A DNA stretch of 37,765 nt, from NCBI GenBank assembly GCA_026391075.1, contig JAPLES010000061.1:1-37765 (forward strand). The letters run 5' to 3'. Source of the stretch: Bacteroidota bacterium. Lineage in GTDB: Bacteria > Bacteroidota > Bacteroidia > Chitinophagales > LD1. The position numbers and the translations under genes are program-made. Of this stretch, positions 1 through 20,116 are shown piece by piece. Every line of letters starts with the position of its first letter. Position 1 is the first letter of the stretch. The notes under the pieces were generated by a model that made no database searches, was not told where the DNA came from, and saw only the letters and a list, made by a program, of their open reading frames with translations.

Positions 1-84
1 ACCGATACCGAGATTGAAAAAATAATGAATCGCTTAATGAGTAAATACGAAAGCGATTTAGGGGCGGTGATTCGCAAAAATTAA
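1..84 (+). CDS. C-terminal end of an unidentified protein (partial)
   Basis: An open frame enters from the left edge and ends with TAA at 82-84. It encodes 27 residues ending in DLGAVIRKN, a charged, probably helical tail (IEKIMNRLMSKYES). The fragment is too short to assign a family. It converges on the serine-tRNA locus, and its stop lies only 4 bases from the tRNA 3' fragment at 89. It could be an out-of-gene frame, but its composition is protein-like. Confidence 0.5.
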   Translation, partial: TDTEIEKIMNRLMSKYESDLGAVIRKN

Positions 85-88
85 TCTG

Positions 89-107
89 CGGAAAGGGAGG
101 GATTCGA
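89..107 (-). pseudogene. 3' fragment of a serine tRNA gene
   Basis: Read on the minus strand, this is the end of a tRNA: T-loop TTCGAAT, T-stem 3' arm CCCTC, acceptor 3' arm CCTTTCC, discriminator G, then CA. It matches the 3' end of the intact tRNA-Ser at 423-507 in layout but has a different acceptor sequence, so it comes from another serine isoacceptor. No tRNA 5' half lies upstream; instead there is the 59-bp repeat and the end of the GIY-YIG gene. A GAGGA just beyond the repeat (157-161 region) may be the leftover 5' T-stem arm. Confidence 0.6.
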
Positions 108-160
108 ATGCTGACGCTTCGATCAGCATCGAGACAAGCTTCGCTTCGTCTCGATCCTCG
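102..160 (-). repeat. 59-bp direct repeat, copy A, in a tRNA T-loop
   Basis: This block matches 530-588 at 56 of 59 positions; the differences I count are at 117, 122 and 155. It holds two hairpins: GCTGA...TCAGC, and a longer one with arms CGAGAC and GTCTCG around AAGC/GCTT. One end is the tRNA T-loop TTCGA and the other is TCGA, so a TCGA flanks the inserted hairpins on both sides. It separates the T-stem arms of the broken tRNA at 89-107. Confidence 0.85.
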
Positions 161-161
161 T

Positions 162-407
162 TCAGGAATATTTGGTCATAAACTCAAGGAGTCTTTGTCG
201 TGAAAGGTTTTTCAATTTTAGTTCCAACTCCATTGCTTCCGCACGTGTTGGTTTCTCGGCACTCCAAATAATTACCCACGGAGTATAAGGTTTCGTTGCT
301 TTTTCATAACCGGAGTTATGTCTGTTCAATCTTTCGATTAAATTTTCGGTTTGACCAATGTAGTATTTGTCAAATTTTTGGGAATGCAAAACGTAAACAT
401 AGAACAC
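162..407 (-). CDS. GIY-YIG nuclease-family small protein next to a tRNA
   Basis: A small single-domain GIY-YIG nuclease of the YhbQ/UvrC-N type, about 81 residues. Visible are the paired motif YVYVLHS then YYIGQT, the Arg-containing helix ENLIERLNRHN and the likely metal-binding Glu in the RAEAMELE helix, so the active site looks intact. The frame stays open upstream to an ATG at 515, but that extra N-terminus is just the translated tRNA-Ser. I therefore prefer GTG at 405-407, which begins FYVYVLHS as in typical family members; ATT at 411-413 is an alternative. The gene starts 15 bases after the tRNA 3' end on the same strand and is probably co-transcribed with it. Members of this family next to tRNAs are, to my knowledge, common in Bacteroidota; their role is unsettled (selfish nuclease or DNA repair). 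Confidence 0.85.
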   Translation of the reverse strand: MFYVYVLHSQKFDKYYIGQTENLIERLNRHNSGYEKATKPYTPWVIIWSAEKPTRAEAMELELKLKNLSRQRLLEFMTKYS

Positions 408-422
408 AACAATACTTTTTTG

Positions 423-507
423 CAGAGAGGAAGGGATTCGAACCCTCGATACCTTGCGGTATACACGCTTTCCAAGCGTGCTCCTTAAGCCACTCGGACA
501 CCTCTCT
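423..507 (-). tRNA. tRNA-Ser (anticodon GGA)
   Basis: This is a complete class II tRNA. The acceptor stem AGAGAGG pairs with CCTCTCT, and the discriminator is G. The anticodon arm is CACGC-TTGGAAA-GCGTG with anticodon GGA, which reads UCC/UCU serine codons. A long variable arm (TACCGCAAGGTA) and a T-arm with loop TTCGAAT follow. No CCA is encoded: the sequence continues CAA after the discriminator. It appears to be the only intact tRNA here and lies between two damaged relatives. Confidence 0.95.
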
Positions 508-529
508 AATTTCAATTACAAAAAGAACA

Positions 530-588
530 ATTCGAATGCTGACGTTTCGGTCAGCATCGAGACAAGCTTCGCTTCGTCTCGACCCTCG
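530..588 (-). repeat. 59-bp direct repeat, copy B, in a tRNA T-loop
   Basis: This is the second copy of the block at 102-160, with the same orientation and the same position inside a tRNA T-loop. The two copies bracket the intact tRNA-Ser and the GIY-YIG gene, so recombination between them would delete both. Beyond its TTCGAAT end the tRNA 3' arm is absent and AT-rich sequence follows. Confidence 0.85.
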
Positions 589-612
589 ATACCTTACGGT
601 TTACACGCTTTC

Positions 613-630
613 TCCCGATAATTATCGGGA
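613..630. repeat. 18-bp perfect palindrome in the tRNA anticodon arm
   Basis: TCCCGATAATTATCGGGA is a perfect palindrome replacing the anticodon loop of the broken tRNA-Ser. The palindrome at 20084-20103 shares its arms (CCCGATA/TATCGGG) and differs only in the central two bases, which suggests the same short-palindrome family. Confidence 0.75.
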
Positions 631-679
631 TGCTCCTTCAACCACTCGGACACCTCTCTAAAAGTGGAGCGCGAATCTA

Positions 680-1462
680 TCAATTCATTTGAAAAACCAG
701 TTGCGCATTTCTTGAAGTAACTTCCGCCACTTCCTCATTGGTTTTGTTTAATGCTAATGCTATGCTTTCACAAACCAACTTCGTGTACGAAGGTTCATTT
801 CGCTTTCCGCGATGCGGCACAGGAGTTAAATACGGAGCATCTGTTTCAAGCACTAAATTTTCTAAGCTTAATTGTTGTAATACTTCTTTCAATCCGGAGT
901 TCTTGTAGGTAACAACTCCGCCAATGCCTAAATAAAAACCTAAGTCAATTATCTGTTTGGCTTCATCCAGCGTACCACCAAAACAGTGAAAAATTCCTTT
1001 CACTCTTCCGGCAAATTTCTTGACTACATCAATACAATTCTGTGTTGATTTGCGGCTGTGAATTACAATCGGAAGGTTTCCGGCAATTGCCATTTCAATT
1101 TGTCTTTCGAAAGCAATCAGTTGTTGTGCTTTGAAACTTAAATCCCAGTAATAATCCAATCCTATTTCGCCAACGGCATAGAATTTTGTTTCACTGTTCA
1201 GGTATTGTTCAACAATCTTCAATTCTGCTTCAAAATTTTCTTTTACGCTGCAAGGATGCAATCCCATCATCGGAAGAATTCTGAATTCTGAATTCTGAAT
1301 TCTGAATTCTGAAAGTGCAATTAATCGTTCGTGAGTTTCAGAGTCAATAGCTGGAAGAAAGATTTTATCCAATCCATTTTGTTGTGCCCGTTGAATTAAA
1401 TCGTTTAAATCATTTTCAAACTCGGGTAAGTAAAGATGGCAATGCGTATCAATCAGTTTCAT
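680..1462 (-). CDS. tatD: TatD-family metal-dependent DNase
   Basis: This encodes a 260-residue TIM-barrel hydrolase of the TatD (YcfH/TatD) family, a cytoplasmic 3'-5' exonuclease/deoxyribonuclease linked to DNA repair. Metal-ligand motifs are in order: DTHCHL near residue 5, GEIGLDYYW near 98, IHSR near 134, HCFGG near 159 and ETDAPYL near 207. Length is normal for the family. The stretch SEFRIQNSEFRI (about residues 51-62), before GLHPCSV, is encoded by a 7-bp tandem repeat and is probably an acquired insertion. The gene diverges from the bamD operon; the serine-tRNA locus follows on the same strand 20 bases after its stop. Confidence 0.93.
   Translation of the reverse strand: MKLIDTHCHLYLPEFENDLNDLIQRAQQNGLDKIFLPAIDSETHERLIALSEFRIQNSEFRILPMMGLHPCSVKENFEAELKIVEQYLNSETKFYAVGEIGLDYYWDLSFKAQQLIAFERQIEMAIAGNLPIVIHSRKSTQNCIDVVKKFAGRVKGIFHCFGGTLDEAKQIIDLGFYLGIGGVVTYKNSGLKEVLQQLSLENLVLETDAPYLTPVPHRGKRNEPSYTKLVCESIALALNKTNEEVAEVTSRNAQLVFQMN
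1276..1310. repeat. Heptanucleotide tandem repeat (GAATTCT x5) inside tatD
   Basis: Five perfect copies of GAATTCT followed by GAA lie inside the tatD coding region. Five units are 35 bases, so gain or loss of one unit would shift the frame. Three units equal 21 bases and would keep it. The repeat also creates five GAATTC palindromes. Confidence 0.95.
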
Positions 1463-1574
1463 TTTGCAAAGAAAGTTTAAAAACGCTTAGTGTTTAAACC
1501 CGCCCCCGTTTTAAACAATATTTTGGCTGCATTCCGTTCGTAGGAGTGTAATTACTATAAACCGAAATGAAATC

Positions 1575-9168: not shown

Positions 9169-10716
9169 ATGAAATTATTCTCTTGTCTGTTGTTTAGCTT
9201 TTTCGTTTCCGTGCTTAATGCACAGAATCTTTTTGATAATGAAATAAGCCAGCAATTCGACCCAAGTTTAAAGCCGTTTTATTTTGGTGTGGCATCGGGC
9301 GACCCGCAACAAAACAGCGTTGTTATCTGGACAAAAGTATGGAGTGATAGCGATCAAACAATAGCTGTAAATTGGGAAGTAGCTACGGATTCAGCTATGA
9401 AAAATGTAGTTGCTGGTAACGAAATGCGCACGAGTTTTACTTCTGCATTCACCGTAAAAATTTTGGTGAAAGGTTTGCAGCCTGCTACTACTTATTTCTA
9501 CCGTTTCGAAACTGAAAACGTTTTTTCCCCTATAGGAAGAACTAAAACGGCTCCAGTAAAATCAGAGCAGCTTCGTTTTGCTGTTGTAAACTGTAATAAT
9601 TTTGAACACGGATATTTTAATGCGTATAGATTAATTGCGAACCGAAACGATATTGATGCCGTGTTGCATTTAGGCGATTACATTTATGAATACGGAGCTA
9701 ACAAAAGTAAGAAGCACCCGAGTGTGCGTCAACATATTCCCGAGCACGAAATTTTGAATTTACAGGATTACCGAAGCCGTTATGCGCAGTATCGCCTCGA
9801 TAAAGATTTGCAGGAAGCACATCGTTTGCATCCTTTTATTAACGTGTGGGACGACCACGAATTTGCCAATGATGCTTACAAGGATGGCGCAAAAAATCAG
9901 CAGGTAGAGGAAGGTGATTGGAATCTAAGAAAAGCTATTGCCAAGAAAGTTTATTTCGAATGGATACCTATTACCGACAATGTGGAGGAAAGTGTTATCC
10001 GCAAAATGAGTTACGGCAATTTAGCGGACTTATTTATGATTGATACGCGCATAGAAGAGCGCTGCAAACAGGTTGACCCTTATGATACCTTGCTGCAATG
10101 CACCACACGAACCATTCTTGGGGCTAAACAAACCGCATGGCTCACACAAGGTGTTGAGCATTCTGCTGCGCGATGGAAAGTGATTGCAAATCAAGTAGTG
10201 TTTTCAGAATTAGATGCACACCAACTCACAAAAAAAAGCCGCATTAATGCCGATGCATGGGATGGTTACCCCGAAGAGCGCAAAGAATTATTTGATTCTT
10301 TTTACGCGAACAACACCAAGAACATCGTCATCATCACAGGCGATATTCATTTGTCGTGGGCATTTGATTTGGTGTTGAACCCTACCGACAAAAACAATTA
10401 CAACAGTAAAACAGGCAAAGGAGTAATAGGAGCCGAGTATGTGGTTCCTAGTGTTACCTCCAATGGCTTGGGCGAACGCATTCCACGAGGGTTAGCAAAA
10501 ATTGTTGAACTTATTTTAAAAAGAGAAGCTACTAACCCTCATTTGCGTTTTCAAAACTTAGTTGATCATGGTTACATGTTGCTCGATTTAGATAACAAAC
10601 GTGCCAATGCTACCTGGTATTTTTGCAAAACCGTGCGCAAGCGTTCCGAAAAATTCTCAGCAAAGGATAGTTGGAGTACGAAGTGGAATGAGAACAGGTT
10701 GGTGAGGGAGAAGTGA
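9169..10716 (+). CDS. PhoD-like alkaline phosphatase
   Basis: A metallophosphatase of the PhoD family, 515 residues from ATG 9169, with signal peptide MKLFSCLLFSFFVSVLNAQ. The open frame extends back to 8947 inside the previous gene, but only the ATG at 9169 gives a signal peptide. An N-terminal fibronectin-like domain (FGVASGDPQQNSVVIWTKV to LQPATTYFYRFE) precedes the phosphodiesterase domain. Metal-binding motifs: NCNNFEHGYFNAY, LHLGDYIYEYG, WDDHEFANDAY and ITGDIHLSWAFD. It should release phosphate from phosphomonoesters or diesters outside the inner membrane. No T9SS sorting domain is seen. Convergent with the next gene, 3 bases apart. Confidence 0.9.
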   Translation: MKLFSCLLFSFFVSVLNAQNLFDNEISQQFDPSLKPFYFGVASGDPQQNSVVIWTKVWSDSDQTIAVNWEVATDSAMKNVVAGNEMRTSFTSAFTVKILVKGLQPATTYFYRFETENVFSPIGRTKTAPVKSEQLRFAVVNCNNFEHGYFNAYRLIANRNDIDAVLHLGDYIYEYGANKSKKHPSVRQHIPEHEILNLQDYRSRYAQYRLDKDLQEAHRLHPFINVWDDHEFANDAYKDGAKNQQVEEGDWNLRKAIAKKVYFEWIPITDNVEESVIRKMSYGNLADLFMIDTRIEERCKQVDPYDTLLQCTTRTILGAKQTAWLTQGVEHSAARWKVIANQVVFSELDAHQLTKKSRINADAWDGYPEERKELFDSFYANNTKNIVIITGDIHLSWAFDLVLNPTDKNNYNSKTGKGVIGAEYVVPSVTSNGLGERIPRGLAKIVELILKREATNPHLRFQNLVDHGYMLLDLDNKRANATWYFCKTVRKRSEKFSAKDSWSTKWNENRLVREK

Positions 10717-20004: not shown

Positions 20005-20116
20005 TGTCATGTTGAGCGAAGGCTTTGCGTAGCGAAACATCTTGTATTTTTGGGGAATGAAATACAAGTTTCCTCACTTCGCAATCCCGATAGCTATCGG
20101 GATGTTCGGAATGACA
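20005..20116. repeat. 112-bp interspersed repeat-like element with internal palindromes
   Basis: TGTCAT at the left end and ATGACA at the right end form short terminal inverted repeats. Inside are an inverted repeat CTTGTATTT/AAATACAAG (20041-20068) and a perfect 20-bp palindrome with arms ATCCCGATAG (20084-20103). The sequence TCATGTTGAGCGAAG...CGGAATGAC resembles intergenic repeats common in Bacteroidota. No coding capacity. It lies between the M23 gene and the DUF2147 gene. Confidence 0.65.

Follow-up and report, generated by a model that had tools for sequence, protein, structure and literature searches.

A minimal GIY-YIG nuclease gene and paired hairpins at broken tRNA-Ser genes suggest a homing-endonuclease-like element of bacterial chromosomes

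Near one end of the window, as we call the whole 37,765-nt stretch of Bacteroidota DNA analyzed here, which starts at a contig end, an intact tRNA-Ser(GGA) gene and a small GIY-YIG nuclease gene lie between two nearly identical repeats, each of which adjoins a piece of a further tRNA-Ser gene. What kind of DNA produces such an arrangement, and is it particular to serine tRNA genes? tRNA genes are known harbors for integrases and for the Seg nucleases of phages, which are linked to tRNA genes. The explanation that we favor, with a probability of roughly 0.57, is that the cassette belongs to a free-standing, homing-endonuclease-like selfish element of the chromosome, whose sole protein would be a minimal GIY-YIG nuclease.

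Anatomy of the cassette and its nuclease

The two direct repeats are 59 bp long, share one orientation and agree at 56 of 59 positions (95%, three differences), as the original prediction had it. Read along the minus strand, the order is a tRNA-Ser 5' part, the first repeat, a 22-nt spacer, the intact tRNA-Ser(GGA), 14 nt, the GIY-YIG ORF, the second repeat and a tRNA-Ser 3' end (Table 1); the further claim that one repeat abuts a tRNA 3' end and the other follows a 5' part held as well. The repeat was found at these two places only, with no further copy in the 3.6-Mb assembly, which is 98% complete. As single-stranded DNA, the two copies are predicted to fold better than their shuffled versions (z of −3.3 and −3.6, with 1 of 200 shuffles equal for each copy). 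The repeat comparison, the assembly-wide search and this folding test led us to reject a chance origin.

Each repeat opens with 6 nt of T-stem, continues with hairpins of 26 and 20 nt and closes with TTCGAAT, the start of the T-loop, so that the paired hairpins sit exactly at the junction of T-stem and T-loop. The 59 bp are thus not one foreign, att-like sequence; they divide into target tRNA sequence and what appear to be hairpins of the element. The original prediction made no mention of these hairpins, of a palindrome in the broken 5' part or of a second source gene. The two broken parts seem to come from two different tRNA-Ser genes. The 5' part is that of the GGA gene, and the 3' end best matches tRNA-Ser(CGA), with 95% identity over 21 nt between positions 88–108 and the tRNA-Ser(CGA) of a congener; this assignment draws on those 21 nt and on the absence of a CGA gene from a MAG.

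Table 1. Features of the tRNA-Ser locus (window positions).
Feature	Position	Strand	Remarks
Broken tRNA-Ser 3' end, T-loop to 3' end	87–108	−	7-nt overlap with repeat; best match tRNA-Ser(CGA)
Right element end (repeat)	102–160	−	T-stem copy 155–160, hairpin 1 129–154, hairpin 2 109–128, T-loop start 102–108
GIY-YIG nuclease ORF, 81 aa	162–407	−	start taken as GTG 405–407
Spacer between tRNA and nuclease ORF, 14 nt	408–421	−	
Intact tRNA-Ser(GGA)	422–507	−	Rfam tRNA 53.4 bits; sole full-length one found in the assembly
Spacer with GTTCTTT at 522–528	508–529	−	by eye resembles the leader upstream of other tRNA genes
Left element end (repeat)	530–588	−	T-stem copy 583–588, hairpin 1 557–582, hairpin 2 537–556, T-loop start 530–536
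Broken native tRNA-Ser(GGA), 5' part	582–659	−	position is that of the native gene in congeners
Palindrome TCCCGATAATTATCGGGA	613–630	.	stands for the 5' anticodon strand of the broken tRNA; dispersed palindrome class

The GTTCTTT in the spacer upstream of the intact tRNA may be boxA-like. The nuclease frame stays open upstream through the tRNA gene (162–515, minus strand), and automatic annotation may therefore give the protein a false N-terminus translated from the tRNA. Elsewhere in the window, the ORF of the neighboring TatD protein contains a seven-base tandem repeat (GAATTCT, 1276–1306) that adds a repeated peptide, and a palindrome at 20085–20102, TCCCGATAGCTATCGGGA, lies by eye within a longer imperfect inverted repeat with no tRNA gene adjoining.

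The ORFs between the repeats reach at most 121 aa, and the GIY-YIG ORF alone among them was recognized. Residues 1–71 of its 81 match PF01541 (E = 3.4e-17, 63 bits against a cut-off of 22.6), and T5orf172 is the sole other Pfam family that it matches. Residues Y5, Y16, G18, R26, H30, E62 and K66 are invariant in a 25-row alignment; we take the conserved Y, Y-x-G, R, H and E to have catalytic roles. Among solved structures, profile comparison places two UPF0213 proteins and SLX1 closest (PDB 1zg2, 1ywl and 7cq2), SLX1 being named a structure-specific endonuclease. The only PHROG profiles matched by the window protein are two of homing endonucleases, both weakly (best E = 9e-4), and two other family members matched none. 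With the window protein as query, plasmids gave no match and phages one weak record, and the proteins of loci L037 and L014 had no match among viral contigs. dN was low relative to dS in three of the four usable pairs (L006/L108 and L098/L108, which are out of register, excluded); for L047/L048 (dN 0.040, dS 0.077) the divergence is too small to show selection. A group I intron with a homing endonuclease is out, as the tRNA-Ser(GGA) of the cassette is continuous and no intron family matched window positions 1–1500 at up to E 1.

The locus and the nuclease family in related genomes

The TatD protein (PF01026, E = 7.8e-72) served as an anchor for the locus in other genomes. It was sought in 40 genomes including the window's own, 38 of which matched, and 30 TatD loci were examined, one of them the window's. 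In three genomes of the window's genus (G017, G010 and G016), an intact tRNA-Ser(GGA) lies no more than 25 nt past TatD and is itself followed by tRNA-Ser(CGA), with neither nuclease nor hairpins. In the window, the broken GGA gene occupies the position of the congeners' GGA gene, and by eye its 5' sequence is shared with G017. Empty sites of the kind that the original prediction expected among relatives are thus present, and the locus is not a fixed one. The proposed route to them, excision between the repeats with rejoining of the tRNA, is not supported: each empty site has a pair of intact tRNA-Ser genes free of hairpins, and such recombination would leave a GGA/CGA-like hybrid with hairpins at its T-loop and lose the only tRNA-Ser(GGA) found.

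At the 29 TatD loci other than the window's, no match to its nuclease was seen within a reach of at most 1,500 bases past TatD. In the genome nearest by TatD identity (G015, 87%), the stretch from TatD to tRNA-Ser(GGA) is as long as that of the window, 175 nt, and 103 of 175 positions are identical without gaps (shuffled mean 46, maximum 65, n = 1,000). The hairpins there are decayed and the nuclease is absent from the locus, with other GIY-YIG genes elsewhere in the genome; as far as its sequence can tell, the stretch is a decayed remnant of the element without its nuclease. The alleles lacking the nuclease at this one locus are those of the three empty congeners and the one remnant, taken from different species rather than strains. 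At the lepA locus (G139 versus G219) the contexts are not comparable and no second empty site was obtained, so that the clean empty sites belong to one locus. By eye, two distinct tRNA-Ser(GGA) alleles alternate among congeners at the TatD locus (L064–L067 and L074), which suggests allele replacement.

A tRNA-Ser(CGA) query of the window's own genome returned tRNA-Ser(TGA) as the best match and also tRNA-Ser(GCT), the cassette tRNA and the fragment at 88–108; no intact CGA gene was found. We read the locus as a native tRNA-Ser(GGA)–tRNA-Ser(CGA) pair whose T-loops may both have been struck, the stretch between them being exchanged for an intact tRNA-Ser(GGA) and the nuclease gene. No GGA copy other than the cassette tRNA was found, and this ties the nuclease gene to one that is probably indispensable. 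Elements of this kind may capture tRNA genes that the cell needs, and this seems to have happened in the window.

The association with tRNA genes extends well beyond this locus. At E 1e-8, a 25-row nuclease profile matched 164 of 247 class-level genomes, the window's own included, and 83 had no match; 60 stretches around nuclease matches were fetched. An intact tRNA gene on the same strand lay near the nuclease gene in 114 of 145 locus-strands, 90 times upstream (within 350 nt) and 24 times downstream (within 200 nt). These counts leave out L002–L005, L062, L092, L093 and L096 (the place of L001), L109 (L131) and L145 (L097), and the 145 still include some overlapping loci (L010/L033 and L111/L140). 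When one high-scoring locus was taken from each of 68 genomes, a sample of best-scoring rather than random matches, 55 had an intact same-strand tRNA (47 upstream, 8 downstream), and opposite-strand tRNAs at the same distances numbered 0. Twelve of the remaining 13 contain a tRNA-like match, short or longer, and matches of only 15–17 nt may be due to chance.

Fragments accompany these intact genes. Of the 90 cases with the tRNA upstream of the nuclease, 66 have a 3' tRNA fragment no more than 230 nt past the gene. Of the 24 with the tRNA downstream, 16 have a 5' fragment at most 400 nt ahead of the gene. The nuclease gene lies outside any intron and adjoins its presumed target tRNA gene. These tRNAs are of many isotypes and not Ser alone, so the original prediction of a nuclease-bearing element that targets serine tRNA genes keeps its first part, the look of a tRNA-targeting element, and loses its serine specificity. 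Farther afield, GIY-YIG relatives lie near tRNA-Gln in two candidate-phylum genomes and one Brocadiaceae genome (L043, L054 and L060).

The family also forms tandem arrays of identical or near-identical units. The longest has ten copies at 457-bp steps behind a tRNA-Met gene, nine of them identical and the last at 79%. Others have five copies (379 bp, the last shortened) behind tRNA-Asn, four (322 bp) behind tRNA-Pro and four (404 bp) behind tRNA-Asp, and such arrays also occur behind tRNA-Leu. The nuclease genes adjoining tRNAs in related bacteria look like a little-noticed sort of selfish DNA. Searches by title and abstract in an open-access library, a scope outside which fall most subscription papers and all preprints, yielded no paper on tRNA-linked GIY-YIG elements of bacterial chromosomes.

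Paired hairpins and the place of the break

Fourteen hairpin segments, picked by eye, were compared: both window copies, eleven loci of the window's nuclease clade, and L097, which is off the tree; within the clade, L038 and L124 yielded no such segment. Every one of the 14 is predicted to form two neighboring hairpins. Changes fall on both sides of the base pairs; pair 4 of hairpin 1, for example, is AT in four segments, CG in four, GC in four and TA in two. The motif TTCRA follows directly after the hairpins in 13 of the 14. At L161, which belongs to the window's clade, the hairpins lie in the anticodon loop before TTTAAT, not TTCRA, and at L105, a tRNA-Arg locus with the gene ahead of the tRNA, such hairpins lie in the D-arm, before TTCAA.

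In eleven 3' copies, the hairpins are followed by the end of the local tRNA, with an exact match in ten and the window as the exception, and the T-stem copy ahead of the hairpins is mostly the local tRNA's as well. Since local tRNA sequence flanks them on both sides, the hairpins look like the element's and the remainder like the target's. The hairpins of L006 (Leu), L098 (His) and L108 (Ser) are identical at 34–37 of 38–39 positions, far more alike than their gene DNA (about 65%), which speaks for constraint on these hairpins and not for a recent transfer. Outside the window's clade, the 5' and 3' hairpins are more similar within one element than between elements (mean 0.81 versus 0.64, 16 elements), in a comparison that is not like for like throughout (L001 and L037 are examples) and that drops four loci lacking a hairpin on one side. 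An extra hairpin, foreign to the intact tRNA, was found in 80 of 80 tRNA copies examined; the finder was run without a shuffle control, and some of the 80 may be chance.

How the break relates to the nuclease can be followed on a tree of 108 rows and 77 columns, which is weakly resolved. Isotype requires 44 changes on it (minimum 14), against a mean of 80.1 for shuffled labels, none of 200 being as low. Valine, asparagine, alanine, methionine and proline genes form largely isotype-specific groups; the labels Arg, Phe, Glu, Gln and His, taken singly, do not cluster significantly. The window's clade (14 rows, SH-aLRT 97) is mixed, with Ser, Phe, Thr, Asp, Met, Leu, His and Arg. All 10 of its 10 classifiable 3' tRNA copies break directly ahead of the T-loop, compared with 8 of 40 outside the clade. 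The tree accounts for this character with 6 changes, where shuffled labels averaged 15.05 and 0 of 300 came as low. The test took in 65 loci, of which 13 were unclassifiable and left out and 50 of the other 52 are on the tree; rows L038, L105, L124 and L161 of the window's clade gave no 3' copy to class.

We used this simpler test because automatic classing of the hairpin site by flank alignment had misplaced some loci (L131 and L040 as anticodon, L126 as T). With that caveat, the automatic classes (n = 79: 46 anticodon, 14 T, 13 D, 6 unplaced) fitted the tree with 16 changes; shuffled classes averaged 23.9, and 0 of 200 were as low. Outside the window's clade, the hairpins are mostly in the anticodon arm, and in the D-loop for several genes that lie ahead of their tRNA. 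The multi-isotype clade breaks tRNA copies mostly at a sequence common to all tRNAs, and the isotype-tied groups break them elsewhere, as would be expected if the hairpin marks the nuclease's site.

Some of the hairpins are members of a dispersed palindrome class. TCCCGA...TCGGGA occurs 22 times in the window's genome versus once for a control, and among the occurrences read, three lie in broken, nuclease-free tRNA copies near intact tRNA-Ser(TGA), tRNA-Met and tRNA-Ala genes. Two of the copies (L190, C18:189187–189204, and L192, C24:50162–50180) have a GTTCTTT stretch nearby and sit directly before the intact tRNA-Met and tRNA-Ala(GGC). The third (L201, C36, about 10378–10611) is a nearly full-length, broken tRNA-Ser in which the palindrome replaces the anticodon arm; it adjoins the intact tRNA-Ser(TGA) at a locus without a nuclease gene. 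The paired T-loop hairpins were found nowhere else in that genome.

Explanations and known systems

From these observations we infer DNA cleavage, movement and repair-driven copying, with some role for the hairpins. The nuclease would cut tRNA genes at a place set by its clade, for the window's clade just before TTCRA and mostly in the universal T-loop. Recombinational repair would then copy the element in and duplicate the part of the tRNA beside the cut, so that one intact tRNA is kept and the other copy is a fragment; in the window's clade, that fragment bears the paired hairpins at the junction of T-stem and T-loop. Further breaks and unequal recombination could account for the tandem arrays. 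The hairpins probably have a function in the element, in recognition or in resolution by a nuclease of the UPF0213/SLX1 branch, and this is the weakest step of the scheme.

The intact tRNA beside the nuclease keeps its T-loop motif unbroken. Insertion would therefore spare the target, unlike classical homing, and simple destruction of the target is a weakened idea; either expression must be low, in which regard the ORF, judged by eye, often begins just behind a terminator-like hairpin, or the real target is wider or structural. Further observations count against the favored explanation, among them the TTTAAT site of L161, the hairpin-bearing tRNA copies without a nuclease, the bare domain of the protein, the single locus with clean empty sites, the lack of matches in plasmids and viral contigs, the isotype labels that do not cluster, and a second, distant GIY-YIG match in the window's own genome (L222, C57:9184–9399, E = 3.6e-15) with no tRNA in its locus. 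That match came from a profile search; the single-protein search gave one gene.

In type III toxin-antitoxin systems, a toxin gene lies behind a terminator-like hairpin and tandem RNA repeats, and a comparable RNA-level system would have the GIY-YIG protein cut tRNA at the loop of the hairpin, with the hairpin-bearing copies as decoys or antitoxins. We consider this unlikely. Many hairpins do replace or enter tRNA loops, several loci have tandem 5' copies ahead of the tRNA, and by eye the ORF often begins just behind a terminator-like hairpin. However, the copies are no more than parts of tRNAs, at many loci none lies upstream of the gene, and the hairpins of the window's clade precede the same short DNA motif even in a D-arm (L105). 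Membership in type III proper is rejected, as the protein is GIY-YIG and not ToxN-like. GIY-YIG relatives of known function, such as SLX1, cut DNA. For SegB, this is described in PMC13096335.

It is also improbable, in our judgment, that the hairpins are independent dispersed palindromes that insert into non-functional tRNA copies, with the GIY-YIG gene a mere neighbor. The abundance of TCCCGA...TCGGGA and its presence in nuclease-free tRNA copies are what one would look for in such a case. Against it, the paired T-loop hairpins were found in their genome only at the cassette, the place of the break tracks the nuclease clade, and the hairpins have decayed in G015, where the locus lost its nuclease, although other GIY-YIG genes lie elsewhere in that genome.

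A housekeeping repair nuclease, encoded behind tRNA genes by happenstance and with fragments from ordinary tandem duplication, would fit the sequence relation to UPF0213 and SLX1 and the low dN relative to dS, but the changing isotype partners, the 83 genomes without a match, the empty sites, the multi-copy arrays and the hairpin ends make it very improbable and weaken any reading as a fixed housekeeping locus. As for an integrase-type element in a tRNA gene with the repeats as attL and attR, direct repeats at a tRNA gene beside an intact tRNA recall one, but we discount it almost entirely and reject the att-site reading, given that neither the ORF list nor Pfam reveals a recombinase-sized ORF between the repeats and that their hairpins are absent from the empty sites.

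Returning to the homing-endonuclease-like element, it is possible, if short of probable, that it stands for a class of its own, mobile, hairpin-ended and nested in tRNA genes. Such an element, consisting of a bare GIY-YIG nuclease with a terminal hairpin pair, would integrate ahead of TTCRA, or at a different fixed site of the tRNA in sister clades. By duplicating the neighboring part of the tRNA it would leave one tRNA intact, and it would multiply in tandem and switch isotype; the nuclease might act on an extruded hairpin or cloverleaf form of tRNA genes. A chromosomal family whose clade sets where tRNA genes are broken and duplicated would explain the tRNA fragments, the odd palindromes inside them and the GIY-YIG arrays of these genomes, and clades with differing break sites would offer a natural series on target choice by a bare GIY-YIG domain.

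Several known systems share parts of this picture. Tyrosine integrase elements sit at tRNA genes and leave an intact tRNA and a partial copy, as here; the window's element differs in having no integrase, in its hairpins at the junction and in a nuclease on the tRNA strand. REP/RAYT and Rickettsia palindromic elements are short dispersed palindromes placed inside genes; here, by contrast, the position goes with a nuclease clade and with one place in the tRNA, and between the repeats no Y1 transposase was seen. SLX1, among the nearest solved structures along with UPF0213, is a repair nuclease that cuts branched DNA with a partner, and no tRNA-linked element for SLX1 or UPF0213 appeared in our searches of an open-access library.

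The closest likeness is to the Seg enzymes. These have an extra part beyond the GIY-YIG domain, and the window ORF, an 81-aa protein with its Pfam match at residues 1–71, is without any such Seg-like part. SegB of T-even phages is a free-standing GIY-YIG homing endonuclease that adjoins tRNA genes (PMC13096335 and PMC2988022). According to PMC13096335, SegB lies by tRNAs of many isotypes and cuts inside tRNA genes; cleavage is favored by the motif RAWTSGAAC, present at 23 of 83 sites, without strictly depending on it. The same source describes SegB and its catalytic residues as required for the tandem amplification of a tRNA gene together with segB, via recombination.

In our own comparison, the SegB motif matches the tRNA T-loop. 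Its reverse complement, GTTCSAWTY, occurs exactly in 45 of 114 intact tRNAs and with at most one mismatch in 86 of 114, against means of 0.4 and 4.35 in shuffled tRNAs, and all exact matches are at the T-loop position, starting 22–24 nt from the 3' end. In the window's clade, the break falls inside this motif. The two systems have in common the GIY-YIG nuclease, adjoining tRNAs of many isotypes, a motif at the T-loop and, as proposed here for the arrays, tandem amplification by recombination, which in SegB takes in the tRNA gene and the nuclease's own gene. The window's family differs in being chromosomal, in its bare domain, in its place within tRNA genes, and in the partial copies and paired hairpins at the break; its sister clades break tRNA genes elsewhere, and several are mostly isotype-specific. 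Given the break inside a SegB-like motif and these shared features, the element can be read as a candidate chromosomal, hairpin-ended version of the SegB strategy.
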